NCBI RefSeq assembly: GCF_021533215.1
Contig: NZ_JAJNKA010000012.1
Span: forward strand, 124,001-188,000
Source of the DNA: Portibacter lacus
Lineage (GTDB): Bacteria; Bacteroidota; Bacteroidia; Chitinophagales; Saprospiraceae
Reading direction: 5' to 3'
DNA: 64,000 nt
Below the pieces are notes generated by a model. The model was not told the DNA's origin. It did not search any database and saw only the letters and a list, made by a program, of their open reading frames with translations. Made by a program: the position numbers and the translations under genes. This document shows, one piece after another, positions 37,160 through 44,460 of this stretch (its first letter is position 1; the number at the start of each line of letters is the position of its first letter).

Positions 37160-37324
37160 CTAAGTAAGGTTATGAATTTCTTCAAAATACCATGCCATAT
37201 CTTCTTCGAAACGGAGAATCTCAGCCAATGATTGAGTGTCAATTTCCACATCTAGATTATTATTAACCTTATTAATTGTATCTGAGAAATCATACTTCAT
37301 TTTGCTTAAATTATTTCGTTCCAT
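37160..37324 (-). CDS. Very small protein B of the phytochrome cluster
   Basis: A 54-residue acidic protein (MERNNLSKMKYDFSDTINKV...) ending FEEIHNLT, with a probable C-terminal helix rich in Glu and Trp/Phe. An upstream ATG at 37345 would overlap the previous gene, but the ATG at 37324 sits one base after that gene's TAA (TAATATG), the arrangement expected for coupled translation. No family recognised and no membrane segment. Same strand as bphO, bphP and the response regulator, so a role with them is inference only. Confidence 0.5.
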   Translation of the reverse strand: MERNNLSKMKYDFSDTINKVNNNLDVEIDTQSLAEILRFEEDMAWYFEEIHNLT

Positions 37325-37325
37325 A

Positions 37326-37514
37326 TTACACTCTAAATATTTCATCGAATTTTAGTATCAAGAGTTCAAGTTTGGAAATTAACTCTTCTTCATTAAAATT
37401 ATAAACTTGAAAATTGTTCTTCAATTGAACTTTCTGAAAAAGTGCAGTATCTTTTTTGTCAACATTAAGAACATTGTTCGGTACTGTTTCTAATTTCATC
37501 ATTCTAGCTTCCAT
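37326..37514 (-). CDS. Very small protein A of the phytochrome cluster
   Basis: A 62-residue soluble protein (MEARMMKLETVPNNVLNVDK...) ending in LLILKFDEIFRV, with a likely amphipathic C-terminal helix (EEELISKLELLILKFDEIF). It starts with ATG 146 bp after the heme oxygenase stop and is followed directly by the second small gene. No family was recognised. A protein-binding partner of the sensor kinase or regulator would fit the size and position, but nothing in the sequence proves it. Confidence 0.5.
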   Translation of the reverse strand: MEARMMKLETVPNNVLNVDKKDTALFQKVQLKNNFQVYNFNEEELISKLELLILKFDEIFRV

Positions 37515-37620
37515 TGTGGTTAATATTAAAGTGATTAATTTACAATCCCATTAACCAAGTTTGTGCCAATTTTTTAAGTAGTTGATATTTAGTGAGTTAC
37601 GAAGATGTGCCAAGGGGTAT

Positions 37621-37658
37621 ATTGATTAAATATGAGAATTTGATGATATTTAATCAAT
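37621..37658. other. 13-bp perfect inverted repeat behind bphO
   Basis: ATTGATTAAATAT (37621-37633) is the exact complement of ATATTTAATCAAT (37646-37658), separated by 12 nt. It lies 2 bp past the heme oxygenase stop and 107 bp before the small-protein start. No T-run follows, so it could be an attenuating hairpin, an mRNA-processing or stability structure, or a protein-binding site. Confidence 0.5.
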
Positions 37659-37660
37659 AA

Positions 37661-38239
37661 CTAAGTGTTGGATTGGATTTGAAATATTTGTTCAAAAATT
37701 AGTTTGCTGTAAGTGCTTAACTCTTCATCTGTAATGGTCATAGGGTAGTATTGAATTTCTTTTTTGAATTCATTCCATCTAGGTTGCAAGTGCGACATTT
37801 TTTCAAGAAAAATGGTTGAAGCTTCTGGTATATTTTGACTTACATATTTTAGAATCATCATGGAGCCTAAGCTACTTCCTAAAAAAGTATATAAAAGAGC
37901 GATAAGGTAATCTGGATGATAGGATTGATCAGAGATAGGTGTAATAGATGATTCTGTTTTTTCTATTTCTAAATTTAAAAAATTGAGACGAATATCTTCA
38001 GCTAATTCAGTTAATCCTAAATCAAAATCGAGAAAATGATAAAGTTGCGAATCTGAAAAATTTATCTTTTCACTAAACAACATTTGATTAGTTTGTCTAG
38101 TAACGAGGAGCCAATTTTGATAATCCTTTAAATCAAAAGTTTTATTTCTGATTTTGTTGCCGATGCCTCCATTATCAAGTTTTTGGTGAATTGGCATGGT
38201 AGCCGCTCTTAGCAGGTCTAGAATAGGACTAGATGACAT
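37661..38239 (-). CDS. bphO: Biliverdin-producing heme oxygenase
   Basis: Opens heme to biliverdin IXa, the chromophore of bacteriophytochromes. LLRAATMPIHQKLDNG near the N-terminus matches the proximal-helix LRxAT..xHxxL motif with the heme-ligand His. YTFLGSSLGSMMILKYV matches the distal-helix GSxLG motif. The ATG at 38239 (MSSSPILDLL) overlaps the response regulator gene by 11 bp and gives 192 residues; a TTG at 38275 would add 12 unconserved residues. Overlap with the regulator and closeness to the phytochrome gene support the role. The family is divergent in sequence, so the call rests on motifs plus context. Confidence 0.85.
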   Translation of the reverse strand: MSSSPILDLLRAATMPIHQKLDNGGIGNKIRNKTFDLKDYQNWLLVTRQTNQMLFSEKINFSDSQLYHFLDFDLGLTELAEDIRLNFLNLEIEKTESSITPISDQSYHPDYLIALLYTFLGSSLGSMMILKYVSQNIPEASTIFLEKMSHLQPRWNEFKKEIQYYPMTITDEELSTYSKLIFEQIFQIQSNT

Positions 38240-38762
38240 TTTGGATATTGTTTTCGATAATTTTGAGGCATTCAAGTATTTGTTCTTTAGGAGCGTTTAA
38301 CTCTAATTTCCTGCTAGCTTTTTGCACATTTAATCTGATGAGATTTAAGTATTCACTTTTATCAAGATCAGCTTTTATCTGAGCTTTACCTTCTTCTAAG
38401 ATATTAAAAACAGTTCTGTAAAGGTCTTGAATATTGTCTTTTAGCACATAACCATTTGCTCCTTTAAGGATTGTTTGAGCAACTTTTTCCTCGTTATTAA
38501 GCGCACCAGTTACAAAGATAAAGGGAACATTCCATGATTTTCGTGATTCTATTAAAATATCTAGTCCATTACAATCTCTCATTTCATAATCGCAAAGGAT
38601 GATATCCGGTTTAACCCAAGTAACTCGCTCTTTATAATCTGCAAGTCCTTCACCAAGAATGAAGGTGGCATTCGGAAAATGTTTCTTAAGCTTTGCTTTT
38701 ATAAGTTCTCTATCCGAACTTGTGTCGTCTATAATTAATATGTTTATAATTTCGTCGTTCAT
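38229..38762 (-). CDS. Single-domain response regulator of the phytochrome kinase
   Basis: A 177-residue protein. The receiver domain (about 5-125) has the acidic pair DDTS, the phosphoacceptor Asp in IILCDYEMRDCNG (about residue 57), the Thr in FIFVTGALNNEE and the Lys in GYVLKDNIQDL. The C-terminal 50 residues are helical (SEYLNLIRLNVQKASRKLEL) without a DNA-binding domain, so the output is probably protein-protein. It lies 109 bp downstream of the kinase and overlaps bphO. A Rcp-type partner of the phytochrome is the likely role. Confidence 0.88.
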   Translation of the reverse strand: MNDEIINILIIDDTSSDRELIKAKLKKHFPNATFILGEGLADYKERVTWVKPDIILCDYEMRDCNGLDILIESRKSWNVPFIFVTGALNNEEKVAQTILKGANGYVLKDNIQDLYRTVFNILEEGKAQIKADLDKSEYLNLIRLNVQKASRKLELNAPKEQILECLKIIENNIQNVI

Positions 38763-38834
38763 GATCTTAATTATGAAGCAAGATATTTATTATTCTGTCT
38801 AAAATAAATAATATTTCATATAAAAAATAATGCG

Positions 38835-38850
38835 ACACTTTTAAAAGTGT
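38835..38850. promoter_or_regulatory. 16-bp perfect palindrome before the response regulator gene
   Basis: ACACTTTTAAAAGTGT is a perfect palindrome in the 109-bp gap between the phytochrome stop and the response regulator start. It could bind a dimeric regulator or form a short hairpin. No T-run follows on the minus strand. Confidence 0.4.
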
Positions 38851-38871
38851 TAGTGCTCTATACTTACTTAC

Positions 38872-41100
38872 TTACTTTCTATCTAAGAAATCCAGGGTTT
38901 TTTTATTTGTGGGAAGGGTTATGATAAATTTGCTACCATTCCCATTTTTATCAGTTATTTTGATTTCGCCCCCATGTCTTTCGACAGCTTTCTTTACAAT
39001 AGAAAGTCCTATTCCACTTCCTTCATATTCATTATCACTTACTAACCTTCTAAAAAGCTCGAAGACTTTCTCTCGATATTTGACTGGGATCCCAATCCCA
39101 TTGTCTGAATAATAAAATGTAGAATAATTATCATCCTTTTCACAATCAATTCGAATTAACGGTGATTCTCCTTTCGAGACATATTTTATACTGTTACTTA
39201 TAAGATTAGAAAAAATTTGATGCATTAATCTAGAATCGCCATAAACTTTTGGTAATTGATCAGCAATTATTAATTGTGCATGAGGAGCGCCAATTTCAAA
39301 GTCTTTCCAGATTTCAAAAATAAAATTTTTAAGATTGATCTCATGAAAAAATAGCGCGTCATTGTTTAATTTTGAAAAACTTAAAATATCCTCTATGAAT
39401 TGTTTCATTCTATCCACGCCATTGCTGATCATGCCTAAGAGTTGCAGCCCATGTTCGTCCATTTTATCTTGATAATCTTCAGCTAATATTTGAGTAAATC
39501 CTTCTATTGCTCTAAGGGGTGATTTTAGATCATGACTTACGGTATAGGTGAAACTTTCTAAACTTTTATAGGCATTATCAAGTTCTTTATTTAAGATAGT
39601 TAATTCTGTAAATTTTCTGTATAAAAGCTCTCGAATTTCGGACTTAATGAGATGTGCTAATTCAATGTCCTCATCGCTCCATGGAACAGCAGTGTTTTTA
39701 GTTTTTCCTATCCATTTTTCGAATGATTTCCGAGGTGTTAAACGACCTTTTTCTTTATCAAACGTTTTTGTTTTATTCGGATTTCCAGCCCATTTTATTT
39801 CTAATTCTTGGGCTTCCCTAAAAAATATAATGTAATCTTTAGTATTTTCTGAAAGTTGAATAACAAGAATTCCTGCCATTTTATCATCATAAATTTCCGT
39901 TGGAAGTACAGTTATACTCTTATTATAAGCTAATACATCGAAAGATTCTTTTTCATTCAACCAATTAACTAAACCATCTAATTTTTCTTGTGAAATTAAA
40001 TGATTACTTCCTTTCGATGTGTCTTGACTTTTCAAATATATTCCTTTGGCATTAATTATGTCAAGTAGATTAGGTTTATTTTCAATCAAACTATGCACTA
40101 GATTTTTGGAATCTAAAAGGTTGAATAAAATCTCTTGTTGGTTTACTGTTGCGGTTAATTTTTTTGTCCTAATTTCTTCCCTATTAAGATTTTTCAAATT
40201 ACTTGAAATGAAATTTGATAGAAATTTAAGCGAATTCCGTTTTTTGAAATCTATTAGATTTGCTTTGGTATGATGACAAGCTATTAATCCCCACAATTGA
40301 TTCTCAAGAACTATCGCAACACTAAATGATGCAGTAACACCTATATTTTTAAGATATTCTAAATGTATCGGAGAGACACCTCTAACATGGACTTTTGATA
40401 AGTTAATTCCTTGTTCTGGGGTTTCCTTATTATTATTACGAATAATTAATTGCTCTGCATTAACATCAGCGATGGTTCTAATTGATTCCTCAAAATAAAG
40501 CGCCCTAGCTTGTTCAGGAATATCGCTTGCAGGAAATTTTAATCCTAAATATGATGGCCGATGATCTGCCCTACGTTCTCTAATAACCAGACCATTAAAT
40601 TCCTGATCAAATTCATATATCATGATATGCTCATAATCAGTTATTTTATATACCTCCTCTAATACCTGATCTAGAAAAATATTTAGATCTGGGGAGTTGG
40701 AAATTGATAAGATCGAGGATTGTAGCGCCTCGTTAAATTCGTGTTCAGAGGGTTTTGCTTCAAGTTCGAATTCTAAATAGATGAGGCCACCATCTTTATG
40801 CTTAATTAACAAGTATGACTTCTTATTTAGATTAATACTTTTTGGTTTCCAAGCATTTTCACTGGTTAAATCTTGCAGTTCACTAGGACTTAGAAATTTT
40901 AGTAAAAATTGAGTTAAGGAAGTTGATTTTAATTCTTCATAAACATTTTCAGAGACATGAAACCACTTGGTCATTTCTATATCTGTGACAAGTAAAATCC
41001 CATAAGATTGAATCCTACTTATTGATCGAATAGGTTCCGCATCACAATTTTTGATGTCATATGGTTGATTATAGTAGGGTTGCTCTTGGTTACTTCGCAT
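38872..41100 (-). CDS. bphP: Bacteriophytochrome histidine kinase
   Basis: Red/far-red photoreceptor kinase of 742 residues. PAS domain first, with chromophore-binding Cys at residue 19 in KNCDAEPIRSISRIQSYG. The GAF domain carries the signature FPASDIPEQARALYFEE (about residue 188) and SPIHLEYLKNIGVTASFSVA, then LWGLIACHHTK. The PHY domain covers about 310-500. The HisKA H-box is TYTVSHDLKSPLRAIEGF (about residue 521), followed by HATPase N, G1 and G2 boxes (NLISNSIKY, SDNGIGIPVKYREKVFELF, GSGIGLSIVKKAVERHGGE). The phosphorelay partner is probably the regulator encoded next. Motif IQSYG departs from the usual IQPHG. Confidence 0.95.
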   Translation of the reverse strand: MRSNQEQPYYNQPYDIKNCDAEPIRSISRIQSYGILLVTDIEMTKWFHVSENVYEELKSTSLTQFLLKFLSPSELQDLTSENAWKPKSINLNKKSYLLIKHKDGGLIYLEFELEAKPSEHEFNEALQSSILSISNSPDLNIFLDQVLEEVYKITDYEHIMIYEFDQEFNGLVIRERRADHRPSYLGLKFPASDIPEQARALYFEESIRTIADVNAEQLIIRNNNKETPEQGINLSKVHVRGVSPIHLEYLKNIGVTASFSVAIVLENQLWGLIACHHTKANLIDFKKRNSLKFLSNFISSNLKNLNREEIRTKKLTATVNQQEILFNLLDSKNLVHSLIENKPNLLDIINAKGIYLKSQDTSKGSNHLISQEKLDGLVNWLNEKESFDVLAYNKSITVLPTEIYDDKMAGILVIQLSENTKDYIIFFREAQELEIKWAGNPNKTKTFDKEKGRLTPRKSFEKWIGKTKNTAVPWSDEDIELAHLIKSEIRELLYRKFTELTILNKELDNAYKSLESFTYTVSHDLKSPLRAIEGFTQILAEDYQDKMDEHGLQLLGMISNGVDRMKQFIEDILSFSKLNNDALFFHEINLKNFIFEIWKDFEIGAPHAQLIIADQLPKVYGDSRLMHQIFSNLISNSIKYVSKGESPLIRIDCEKDDNYSTFYYSDNGIGIPVKYREKVFELFRRLVSDNEYEGSGIGLSIVKKAVERHGGEIKITDKNGNGSKFIITLPTNKKTLDFLDRK

Positions 41101-41275
41101 TGTTTACTTATTCTTACCCTTTTAAGCGAAGGGAGTAGAGTTCGTTCTTAACAAAAGTAGTTGGAAATTCTACATTTCATAATTTATTTTCTTTTTATTT
41201 AGTTTATTTATTGAATCAATTTTATAGATTATTCTAAAGTTTACAAACATATTACCACTAGTAAGGAATGCTTCC

Positions 41276-42973
41276 TTGTCGATTTCCCCTACTTATTGTA
41301 TTTTCAATAGCAACGGTGAGGCAATCTATATTAGCGATGAACTGTATGATTTTCTGAAATTGGACAAAGCTAGTTCCTATACCATATTTGAAATAAACCC
41401 TGAATTTAGTTTCTTAAAATGGAAAGAAATACATCAAGTGAAAACTGAGGATTTTCAAATGTTAGAAACGAGCTATCTAGAAGGTGGCTTTAATGCGAAA
41501 AATTGCTTAGTTAAATATCTTAATTTTGAAAACTTTACGATCTATTATATCATTGATGATAAAGAGGTAAAGTCTAAGGAAGCAGTTACATCCTATGAAA
41601 ACAATGATATTAATTATGATCGAGACTCACCTAACCCTGTAATATACTTTTGCGAAAATGGAATAGTGGGCTTTAAAAATAGAGAGGCAGAAAAGTATAA
41701 TCCTAATTCGACGAATGTTACAGATCTTTTCTTAGAACCTGATTCTGGGCCTATTGCCGATTGCGTAAAAGGTTACCAAGACGACAAGGAGTATGTTATT
41801 AGAATGATAATGAGGACTAATGCTGGATTAAAAGAAGGTTATAGTAGGATATTTTTTATCTCAAGTAATTCTTTACAAAAGAGATTTAGACTTGAATTTC
41901 ATTTTTCTGAAAAAGGCACACATTTTGATGAACCGTTGAAAGAGGCAATGGTAGAATTAAATAGATTGGAAGAAGTTATTTCTAGCAATAAAGAAATAAT
42001 GATAGAGGATAGTATTGCTCAGTTTTCTTTAGATGATATTGTAACTCAGTCTCCTAAATATAAAGAAGTTCTAAGGCAAGTTGCCACTGTAGCAGATACG
42101 AGTTCAACTGTTTTAATTACGGGTGAAACAGGAACTGGGAAAGAAATGTTATGCAATACATTATATAAACTAAGTGATAGAGCAGAGGAGATAATTATTA
42201 AAGTTAATTGTGCCACAATTCCTGAAAATTTAATAGAAAGTATCCTTTTTGGACACGAGAAAGGTTCCTTCACAGATGCTAAAGAAACTAGAATAGGCAA
42301 ATTCGAATTAGCACATAAGGGGACGATATTTTTAGACGAAATCGGAGAAATGCCTTATGAAATGCAAGCTAAGTTATTACGTGTTTTGCAGGAAGGTGAA
42401 ATAGAAAGATTAGGCAATCCGAATCCAATTAAAGTTGATGTAAGAATCATCGCCGCAACAAACAGGAATTTGAAAAAATTAATTAAGGAAAAGAAGTTTA
42501 GAGAAGATCTTTATTATCGATTAAATGTTTTCCCCATTTTTAATTTACCTTTAAGGGAAAGAAAAGAAGACATTCCTTTATTAACAAATCATTTTATTAT
42601 AAAGGCGAACAAAAAGACAGGAAGGGAAGTAAAAAGAATTAGAGAGCAAGATATTAAGTTACTAGAACAATACGAATTTCCAGGAAATGTGCGAGAATTA
42701 GAAAATATAATAGAAAGGTCAGTAATCTCATCTTATGGAGAAGTATTGTTATTGAACACTTTTAAAGGTAGTCCCAGTAAGAAAAAGCATGCAGAATTTG
42801 AATTTCTTACGCTTGAAGAAGCTGAAAGGAATCATATAATTAAAGCTTTAAAATATACAAATGGGAAGGTTTCTGGAACTAATTCTGCTTCAGAATTATT
42901 GAAATTAAATAGTAAGACTCTTACTTCTAGAATAAAAAAGCTTAATATTAATCCTAGAAAATTTATGAACTGA
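41276..42973 (+). CDS. Sigma-54-type transcriptional activator with PAS-like N-terminus
   Basis: A 565-residue AAA+ enhancer-binding protein. The N-terminal ~250 residues (starting PTYCIFNSNGEAIYISDELY) look PAS-like and carry no receiver domain. The AAA+ domain has Walker A ITGETGTGKEMLCN (about residue 282), the sigma-54 contact loop as GSFTDA instead of GAFTGA (about residue 329), Walker B GTIFLDEIGEMPYEMQAKLL and RLNVFPIFNLPLRERKEDIP. A FIS-type helix-turn-helix (about 525-560) ends the protein. No in-frame ATG exists after the upstream stop; TTG at 41276 is the likely start. Divergent from bphP, so it may control the light cluster. Confidence 0.9.
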   Translation: MSISPTYCIFNSNGEAIYISDELYDFLKLDKASSYTIFEINPEFSFLKWKEIHQVKTEDFQMLETSYLEGGFNAKNCLVKYLNFENFTIYYIIDDKEVKSKEAVTSYENNDINYDRDSPNPVIYFCENGIVGFKNREAEKYNPNSTNVTDLFLEPDSGPIADCVKGYQDDKEYVIRMIMRTNAGLKEGYSRIFFISSNSLQKRFRLEFHFSEKGTHFDEPLKEAMVELNRLEEVISSNKEIMIEDSIAQFSLDDIVTQSPKYKEVLRQVATVADTSSTVLITGETGTGKEMLCNTLYKLSDRAEEIIIKVNCATIPENLIESILFGHEKGSFTDAKETRIGKFELAHKGTIFLDEIGEMPYEMQAKLLRVLQEGEIERLGNPNPIKVDVRIIAATNRNLKKLIKEKKFREDLYYRLNVFPIFNLPLRERKEDIPLLTNHFIIKANKKTGREVKRIREQDIKLLEQYEFPGNVRELENIIERSVISSYGEVLLLNTFKGSPSKKKHAEFEFLTLEEAERNHIIKALKYTNGKVSGTNSASELLKLNSKTLTSRIKKLNINPRKFMN

Positions 42974-42977
42974 AATT

Positions 42978-43307
42978 TTGAATAATATTAATGAAAATAT
43001 ACATGCTCCTAATGAATTGATTTCATTGTATATGAAACAAGAAAACAATCCTATTTTACTTGTATTTGATGCGGAATGGTCCAGTACATCTTCTATGACT
43101 GAAATTATAACAAAAAAAATTAGAAAGGAAGCCAAAAATATTAAGTTAGTAAAAATTGATATAGACCAAGAAGAAAATTTAGCAAGAAAATATCGGATAA
43201 AAAAGGTACCGACTTGTATGTTGCTTATCAATAATGAATTAAAATATAGATACGAGGGTCTTTTTTCTAAGTCAATGGTTTTACAAGCATTGGCTAAGAA
43301 TTCATAG
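42978..43307 (+). CDS. Thioredoxin-fold protein without active-site cysteines
   Basis: A 109-residue protein with a thioredoxin fold: strand ILLVFDAEWSSTSSMTEII where the WCxxC motif should be, then KLVKIDIDQEENLARKYRIKKVPTCMLLIN, with the cis-proline in KKVPTCMLL. The site reads WSSTS, so both redox cysteines are gone and disulfide chemistry is not expected; binding or scaffold use is more likely. It starts with TTG 4 bp after the sigma-54 activator stop, so the two genes are co-transcribed and probably linked in function. Confidence 0.8.
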   Translation: MNNINENIHAPNELISLYMKQENNPILLVFDAEWSSTSSMTEIITKKIRKEAKNIKLVKIDIDQEENLARKYRIKKVPTCMLLINNELKYRYEGLFSKSMVLQALAKNS

Positions 43308-43552: not shown

Positions 43553-43852
43553 ATGAAAAGATGGATGACTTTTTACGCTTTACTTACTACTTTTTGTGCA
43601 ATGCTTTTATATTTCAATACCACATTATTTGCTAAATGCCTCTCATTTTTTCTAACACTCTCTTTTTTTATCTTTTTCATCTTATCGATACTTTCATATG
43701 TCAGAAAGAAAAGAAAATTGTGCAATTTGACAGTTGAGTTTAATTACCTAGATTCAACTAAGCGTGGCACTTTAGATAAATCCCAGTCAATGACTAATCC
43801 TTTAGCCAAGGAAGCCGCTATTTCTTCTCCATACAACAACTCAGAAAGATAA
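43553..43852 (+). CDS. Possible small membrane protein
   Basis: A 99-residue frame with two hydrophobic segments (MTFYALLTTFCAMLLYF and LSFFLTLSFFIFFILSILSY) followed by a basic stretch (VRKKRKL). The last third overlaps the 3' end of the convergent DJ-1/PfpI gene by 109 bp and has less protein-like composition, so either the gene ends oddly or only its first part was once coding. No family recognised. Nothing else was seen in the gap 43308-43552. Confidence 0.4.
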   Translation: MKRWMTFYALLTTFCAMLLYFNTTLFAKCLSFFLTLSFFIFFILSILSYVRKKRKLCNLTVEFNYLDSTKRGTLDKSQSMTNPLAKEAAISSPYNNSER

Positions 43853-44460
43853 AGTGCAGCTTCGAATGATTTAGCCCCTCCAGCTGATGTAATCGCTTTT
43901 CCATCATGTACAAATAAAACATCGCTAACTACATCTAATTCTGGGAACATTTTTTCGTATTCATCGATGTCTGAAGGAAAGGTTGTAGACTTAAGACCAT
44001 CTAGCAATCCAGCCTTCGCTAATACAAATGCGCCATCACAATGAGATGTTATAAATTCTGCTTTTTCGCCTACTTCTTTTACAAAATCAATCATCACCTT
44101 ATTTTCTAGATCTGAATCCAAATGATGCTCTGCACTGGGCACTACTAATATATCAATGTGGGGATAGTTTTTTAGATAGTTGAAATCGGGCAGGATGTAC
44201 ATCCCTTCGAAAGTTTTAATCGGTTGATCCGTGTCAGCAATAGTGAAAACATTCATTGCTTTTATCCCATCTCGAAACCTAGTGTGCTGGAAGATGTCAT
44301 AAGGTGCAGTCAATTCCGTATTATAAACACCGTCCATTATCAATATGCCTACATTATACCATTCATCGTTTAATTCTATGTCTGTCTTATGACTAGAAGT
44401 ACATGAATTCATTAGAATAAATACGATAGTGAGTATTTTGACATAAAATAGAGGCTTCAT
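43744..44460 (-). CDS. DJ-1/PfpI-superfamily lipoprotein
   Basis: A 238-residue protein with lipobox cysteine near residue 19 (VFILMNSCTSS). The class I glutamine-amidotransferase-like fold follows: YNVGILIMDGVYNTELTAPY, DILVVPSAEHHLD and the nucleophile-elbow Cys in EFITSHCDGAFVLAKAGLLDG, then SAGGAKSFEAALYLSELLYG. The arrangement resembles the sensor half of GlxA-type regulators, but there is no DNA-binding domain and the protein is membrane-anchored. Substrate unknown. Confidence 0.85.
   Translation of the reverse strand: MKPLFYVKILTIVFILMNSCTSSHKTDIELNDEWYNVGILIMDGVYNTELTAPYDIFQHTRFRDGIKAMNVFTIADTDQPIKTFEGMYILPDFNYLKNYPHIDILVVPSAEHHLDSDLENKVMIDFVKEVGEKAEFITSHCDGAFVLAKAGLLDGLKSTTFPSDIDEYEKMFPELDVVSDVLFVHDGKAITSAGGAKSFEAALYLSELLYGEEIAASLAKGLVIDWDLSKVPRLVESR

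Follow-up and report, generated by a model that had tools for sequence, protein, structure and literature searches.

What does a red-light sensor control when its gene diverges from that of a sigma-54 activator? The pathways downstream of bacteriophytochromes in non-photosynthetic bacteria are poorly understood, according to PMC6932827, and a locus of Portibacter lacus, a marine member of the Saprospiraceae with a genome of 6.3 Mb, raises the question in a concrete form. The locus lies in a stretch of 64,000 nucleotides of contig NZ_JAJNKA010000012.1, hereafter called the window, whose numbering is used throughout. Its minus strand carries bphP, encoding a bacteriophytochrome histidine kinase, the gene of a response regulator (RR), a putative heme oxygenase gene (bphO) and two very small genes, sp1 and sp2; its plus strand carries, divergently from bphP, the gene of an enhancer-binding protein (EBP) - that is, the sigma-54 activator - and, 4 bp on, that of a thioredoxin-fold protein (Trx). 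All seven genes were found at the positions given by an initial annotation. As a whole, the locus is best explained, and probably rightly so, as a light-linked sigma-54 regulatory module; the predicted control of sp1-sp2 by a sigma-54 promoter and enhancer-like dyads is well supported, and we infer the light step, an input from BphP to these two genes. Judged by sequence comparison, this gene composition is one particular form of a more widespread EBP-Trx module, which elsewhere accompanies operons for extracytoplasmic function (ECF) sigma factors and Dps.

Sigma-54 signals before two small genes

The first small gene, sp1 (37326..37514, minus strand; 62 aa, without a Pfam match), is preceded by a -24/-12 promoter of the sigma-54 type, TTGGCACAAACTTGG (37569-37555, minus strand), whose first base lies 55 bp before the sp1 ATG. 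Two enhancer-like dyads of 16 bp each stand further upstream, in opposite orientations: dyad 1, TGATTAAATATCATCA (37641..37656, minus strand), is 87 bp upstream of the -24 element, and dyad 2 (37623..37638, listed on the minus strand), which reads TGATTAAATATGAGAA on the plus strand, is 69 bp upstream of it. The exact TGATTAAATATNATCA dyad occurs once in the genome, as dyad 1. The genome also holds a single copy of rpoN and four strong sigma-54 activators, the EBP of the locus being the best match. Since a sigma-54 promoter with enhancer-like dyads precedes the small genes, sp1-sp2 are likely targets of the activator. These signals, at 37555-37656, had been overlooked in the initial annotation, which placed shared regulation in the spacer between the divergent bphP and activator genes; the evidence for it comes instead from the region before the small genes. 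Between dyads and promoter lies a second TTGGCAC (37600-37613, minus strand) that lacks the G expected at -12, possibly a second or relic promoter. Scans for sigma-70 promoters and terminators gave chance level only.

Do relatives have the same signals? The nearest one is the L040 locus of Portibacter marinus (the same-genus genome G080 is P. marinus 10MBP4-2-1), and the others compared are Saprospiraceae metagenome-assembled genomes. The promoter set comprised 29 loci, namely 28 loci of Trx-like genes without a CxxC motif and L153, which has sp1 and bphP. The 28 Trx loci were obtained by joining bphP-centred and Trx-centred sets (15 from the bphP-centred survey, L042 and L047, and 11 from the Trx-centred search), and many of the stretches are cut by contig ends. 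Nineteen genes lead target operons in these loci: sp1 (5), the gene of a ~140-aa protein that is followed in the operon by an ECF sigma or Dps gene (8), and an ECF sigma gene placed first (6). A -24/-12 element is present within 200 nt upstream of 18 of these 19 leaders (5/5, 8/8 and 5/6, respectively), compared to 0.0105 elements expected per 200 nt, and of 10 of the 11 leaders that were left out of profile building. The one exception is L236, where dyads are accompanied by a variant promoter, TTGGTAT...TTTGC.

The dyads follow the same pattern. With at most one mismatch, 32 matches were found in the 911,102 strand-bases of the 29 loci; 24 of them, which belong to 16 promoters, have a -24/-12 element 50-110 nt downstream, all at a distance of 68-69 or 87-88 nt. 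Thirty dinucleotide shuffles gave a mean of 2.1 dyad matches, with zero paired with a -24/-12 element. Because dyads and sigma-54 promoters of the same kind and spacing stand at both operon types, sp1-sp2 and the relatives' ECF/Dps operons appear to be under one regulatory code. The EBP is the likely reader of the dyads, since an activator is encoded in most of these loci, an attribution that rests on linkage. Dyad matches were also seen just upstream of the Trx gene in two loci (L233:3203-3236 and L238:9294-9309), where no clear -24/-12 element was seen; they suggest autoregulation.

Several points weigh against a common code. The dyad motif was derived from promoters that were later counted, and its presence is thus partly circular; the fixed spacing was not imposed. 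In two of the 18 promoters, those of L042 and of P. marinus, only weaker dyads are found near the usual position. Taken by itself, the -24/-12 pattern shows no enrichment in the window (32 matches versus 47.7 expected), and in the whole genome it gives 74 matches versus 78 for the reversed pattern. When 20 of these 74 stretches were read, 14 sites proved to be inside long open reading frames (ORFs), and in the remaining 6 the first ORF after the site was not ECF- or Dps-like by eye. At up to two mismatches the dyad has 76 matches in the genome (30 for the reversed pattern); 30 of these 76 loci were read, and among those read no site besides that of sp1 has a promoter at the right distance, the only other one with an element (L266) having a weak TGGCAC at the wrong distance. 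The link to ECF sigma factors and Dps is therefore not shown in Portibacter itself.

As for what the operon encodes, the two tiny tandem genes on one strand noticed initially turned out to be conserved genes, in families of five (sp1) and three (sp2). The sp1 family (window, L040, L041, L137 and L153) is found in 5 genomes, every time in a locus with bphP, RR, bphO and a sigma-54 element; its profile was run on 57 loci only, of which 44 were chosen for bphP, and it is absent from the other 13, which are Trx loci without bphP. A search of 150 whole genomes with sp1 alone found it in place, besides the window, in 2 of the 149 others (L010 and L011); eight further weak matches in that search were judged to be chance. 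An sp1 model built on three sequences suggests, at low confidence, a short beta hairpin and a C-terminal helix, and a fold search with this low-confidence model returned nothing significant. The second gene, sp2 (37160..37345, minus strand), is listed with 61 aa; its start may instead be the ATG at 37324, which immediately follows the sp1 stop and would give 54 aa. Over its C-terminal half it can be aligned to the second small gene of both L041 and L137, and all three share a C-terminal W-[YF]-F motif. The L041 operon continues with a third small gene, and both the L041 and the L137 operons with a ~110-aa protein; the four proteins scanned from these operons have no Pfam match above cut-off. 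A role of the ~110-aa protein as a ribosome-hibernation factor was considered and finds no support in Pfam.

A different possibility is that sp1 and sp2 are untranslated and that the sigma-54 transcript is a regulatory RNA. The ORFs are indeed very small and divergent, and neither has a Pfam match above cut-off, but sp2 has homologues in two genomes, and an sp1 amino-acid motif around LFxK..LsNG..iyDFdE..i.K.e.li..D is kept in four other genomes whose proteins are 22-39% identical to that of the window, so that we consider a purely RNA-borne function highly improbable. The two genes represent two new small-protein families, one of them with a defined promoter.

The activator and the thioredoxin-fold protein

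The EBP (41276..42973, plus strand) is composed of two PAS-like domains, a AAA+ sigma-54 interaction domain (PF00158, 239 bits) and a Fis-type helix-turn-helix (HTH_8, 22.8 bits versus a cut-off of 22). Together with a GAFTGA-like loop, in variant form, and with the dyads and -24/-12 element upstream of its putative target, these are the features of a bacterial enhancer-binding protein. The Pfam scan gave no Response_reg match, and the activator divergent from bphP is, as had been noted, receiver-less. For both EBP and Trx the listed start codon is TTG, which makes their start sites uncertain. In a model of the N-terminal 249 residues of EBP, a long helix comes after two PAS-like domains (mean pLDDT 71, pTM 0.46); Foldseek relates this region to tandem-PAS proteins such as MmoS, HIF-2/ARNT, FixL and PpsR (E about 1e-6), with a TM of only about 0.3, so that the domain arrangement is not matched. 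A scan for this N-terminus found 4 loci, all of this family, absence elsewhere being weak evidence as a single peptide pattern was used. In L042 (7364-9157; genome G113) the AAA+ domain of the activator contains an in-frame stop, which marks either a pseudogene or a sequence error.

The closest known arrangement is that of Pseudomonas aeruginosa, where BphP phosphorylates AlgB, an NtrC-type regulator with a receiver and a GAFTGA motif; in a tree of 150 BphP orthologues AlgB is present in about 93% of species, and BphR in those without AlgB (PMC6932827). Both systems couple a bacteriophytochrome kinase to an NtrC-family sigma-54 activator, and bphO is in the P. aeruginosa locus too (PMC6932827). 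AlgB, however, has its own receiver and is phosphorylated directly, whereas the Portibacter EBP is PAS-like, with a separate RR and a redox-dead Trx added; because it has no receiver, it is not an AlgB. That BphP phosphorylates EBP directly, on the precedent of this relay (PMC6932827), is thus extremely unlikely for a protein with a PAS-like N-terminus and without a receiver match.

The neighbouring Trx-fold protein (42978..43307, plus strand) matches PF00085, the generic Trx model and its best match, with 44.3 bits (cut-off 23.5) and keeps the Trp and the cis-Pro, both invariant across 16 alignment rows; thioredoxins are also what a profile search against solved structures yields. Its description as a thioredoxin without redox cysteines needs some nuance: WSSTS does replace WCGPC, and the TIGR01068 score (51.9) is below the cut-off of 96.8, but the protein is not literally cysteine-less, as one Cys stands beside the cis-Pro. 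A profile of 16 members, applied to 248 Saprospiraceae genomes, gave 22 best matches in 20 genomes, all without CxxC, and all 10 readable ones among the next-ranked matches carry CxxC. In a tree of 27 members (one short row, L133, was left out) and 10 normal thioredoxins, the latter form a single group with support 98/94, and the bphP-linked members are scattered over several subclades. Could the protein still be a redox sensor or reductase, acting through the single Cys that the window protein and several relatives keep near the cis-Pro? Such a role is highly improbable, given that CxxC is present in 0/22 members from the profile search and 0/17 from the bphP survey, and that in 11 of the latter 17 the matched stretch is entirely free of Cys. 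One genome, G035, has two very similar CxxC-less Trx genes (L231 and L059), one of them on a short contig.

With which genes is this family associated? An EBP gene on the same strand is near Trx in 18 of the 28 loci, as the next gene in 15 and 1.9-2.6 kb away in L237, L239 and L240. Of 20 Trx genes that lack CxxC, 12 have an EBP at ~1.5 kb or less, versus 0 of 10 genes with CxxC (some stretches being shorter); bphP lies within 5.5 kb of Trx in 15 of the 28 loci. Both partners are present in 7 loci, EBP only in 11, bphP only in 8, and neither in two, one of which is a 4.6 kb contig; in the other, L232, Trx is accompanied by two RRs, the ~140-aa gene and Dps. An RR stands beside Trx without bphP in five loci (L232-L235 and L240). 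Conversely, the bphP-centred survey found a CxxC-less Trx within 5.5 kb in 15 of 44 Saprospiraceae bphP loci versus 0 of 26 outside the family, where 26 of 29 listed bphP places were read; the 44 loci correspond to 43 listed places and a fragment, L065 (G074), the latter bphP-negative in the genome-level count. At that level, 14 genomes have bphP and Trx, 7 bphP only, 6 Trx only and 221 neither (Fisher p = 1.4e-13, relatedness ignored), counted by hand and assuming that the 248 Trx-searched genomes are among the 398 bphP-searched ones.

The suggestion that the small proteins and Trx would be linked to bphP in other genomes thus largely holds, within Saprospiraceae only, with the restriction that Trx is not exclusive to bphP: in the Trx-centred set of 22, an EBP is near 16 and bphP near 9, so that most are away from bphP. 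For sp1, bphP is present in 5/5, among loci mostly chosen for bphP. Comparison supports a recurrent linkage of the EBP-Trx unit with bphP, with the CxxC-less Trx as a predicted dedicated partner of EBP; on this evidence the thioredoxin-like family is one common to the photoreceptor and to the sigma-54 switch.

Photoreceptor genes and a possible relay

BphP (38872..41100, minus strand) has PAS_2, GAF, PHY, HisKA and HATPase_c domains above Pfam cut-offs, as well as NCDAEP and DIP motifs. It displays the PAS-GAF-PHY core, kinase output and N-terminal Cys of a bacteriophytochrome, the Cys being presumably the bilin-binding residue. The RR (38229..38762, minus strand) is a single-domain response regulator (PF00072, 46.5 bits, above cut-off) with a C-terminal extension and Asp at 12-13 and 58; the closest solved sequences are LvrB and NarL, Rcp1 being weaker. 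The putative heme oxygenase bphO (37661..38275, minus strand; alternative ATG at 38239) is conserved after RR in relatives and reaches 16.8 bits with PF01126, below the cut-off of 23 (E 0.0064), and its name therefore rests mainly on conserved position and homologues. The adjacency of the three genes, with bphO overlapping RR, is as first described. The bphP gene is preceded, in tandem, by a second BphP-like gene in nine Saprospiraceae loci (L064 and L145-L152, genus g7). In L041 (4814-6046) a histidine-kinase gene that matches the BphP kinase region adjoins Trx on the side away from EBP, possibly as a further input.

How would light reach sp1-sp2? In the mechanism that we propose, the tandem pair of 16-bp dyads before sp1 would be bound by EBP, which would turn on the sp1-sp2 operon together with RNA polymerase-sigma54. 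As EBP is without a receiver, BphP should act through RR, the separate single-domain receiver that it would phosphorylate. The Trx-fold protein most likely acts as a protein-protein regulator of EBP, either as an adaptor on which the phosphorylated receiver docks or as an anti-activator released by it. It is a candidate for the link because it is found both with bphP and with EBPs, each on its own; RR would fit this role too, less strongly, as it also stands beside Trx in loci without bphP. Red/far-red light would gate the output in some lineages, Portibacter included. This output is probably a stress or dormancy programme, since the EBP-Trx unit and the dyads stand, in relatives, with operons for ECF sigma, the ~140-aa protein and Dps. 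A broader and more tentative proposal, which we regard as possible without favouring it, is that the redox-dead Trx is the hinge of a Saprospiraceae general stress response: a receiver phosphorylated by the bacteriophytochrome and by other kinases would unlock the PAS-type activator, which in most lineages would drive an ECF-sigma/Dps cascade and in Portibacter two new small effectors.

The gene linkage and the activator itself also provide arguments on the other side. The search that yielded 22 of the 28 Trx genes used a model made from some of the same genes. The sigma-54 contact loop of EBP is GSFTDA, not GAFTGA (GAFTDA in P. marinus); among the 16 other activators read it is G[AS]FTGA in 13, the search string not being found in 3. 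Moreover, 8 of the 28 loci have Trx near bphP with no EBP in the stretch, and 11 have the EBP-Trx pair with no bphP in the stretch, which implies that light is at most one input.

These last 11 loci, in four genomes of which (G113, G079, G852 and G279) bphP is on another contig, are also what speaks for a simpler scheme, in which EBP, Trx and sp1 form a sigma-54 stress switch that responds to PAS-sensed input only, EBP having PAS-like domains of its own, and bphP-RR-bphO are neighbours in a stress island that signal elsewhere. This scheme does not account for the 8 loci in which Trx is near bphP without EBP, nor for the RR beside EBP-Trx without bphP in L233-L235 and L240. The genome-level co-occurrence of bphP and Trx, in which relatedness is ignored, argues against it as well, as does the presence of sp1 with bphP in 5/5 cases and in 0/13 Trx loci without bphP, in a search weighted towards bphP loci. 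We hold it to be rather unlikely, and retain the light-linked module as the preferred explanation.

Known systems and surroundings of the locus

The gene order of BphP with a single-domain regulator of the BphR/Rcp1 type resembles that of the Portibacter set. The likeness extends to bphP with a stand-alone receiver and bphO (BphR in PMC6932827); the Portibacter set differs in being tied to a sigma-54 activator and a likely target operon, and Rcp1 is a weak sequence match. Rrp2-RpoN-RpoS is a cascade from sigma-54 to an alternative sigma factor. Another is that of hrpL (PMC5263251), and the sigma-54 promoters that relatives of the module have before an ECF sigma gene are similar. In Portibacter, by contrast, the target is sp1-sp2, and a PAS-type EBP with a Trx partner and a light sensor is not part of those cascades.

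In the alphaproteobacterial general stress response, PhyR-NepR-EcfG operates with light kinases. A light-sensing kinase feeding an ECF-controlled stress programme is an analogous logic, but control in Portibacter is apparently by sigma-54 and EBP. Neither PhyR nor NepR is among the nine window proteins scanned, the whole genome not having been searched for either, and the ECF of one relative scores 17.5 bits with PhyR_sigma2 (cut-off 27). KaiB and HyaE/HupG are non-redox regulators with a thioredoxin fold, in which a Trx-like fold serves protein binding. The Portibacter protein differs from them in being best matched by the generic Trx model, HyaE reaching 15.9 bits, below cut-off.

Work on sigma-54 in Bacteroidota has connected it with envelope stress and protein quality control in Flavobacterium psychrophilum (PMC9723704), and with chaperones and proteases across classes (PMC12316311); the main text of PMC12316311 contains none of the words Dps, thioredoxin, phytochrome and Saprosp-. 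In the open-licence literature we found no described wiring of light to sigma-54 and no general stress response for Saprospiraceae, nor any paper joining a bacteriophytochrome or an enhancer-binding protein with a thioredoxin-like partner, or dealing with phytochromes of Saprospiraceae or with bacteriophytochromes and sigma-54 in Bacteroidetes. BphP signalling and sigma-54 activation are of known kinds, and it is the Trx-fold part that is unusual, the locus offering a clear example of a thioredoxin fold that has apparently become a signalling component. Light may feed into a stress response of Saprospiraceae, since the likely sites of the activator precede sp1-sp2 beside a red-light sensor, and stress genes in relatives. 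As this photoreceptor locus comes with probable DNA target sites defined to the base pair, the wiring is directly testable.

Within the genus, the module may have been gained or lost as a block, because the third Portibacter genome, G828, has no bphP match and only a weaker Trx match; its best one (6.1e-21) is weaker than every match found without CxxC. Adjoining the module, at 43744-44460 on the minus strand, is the gene of a DJ-1/PfpI-family protein with an N-terminus that is lipoprotein-like by eye; it is 74% identical, and in place, in P. marinus.

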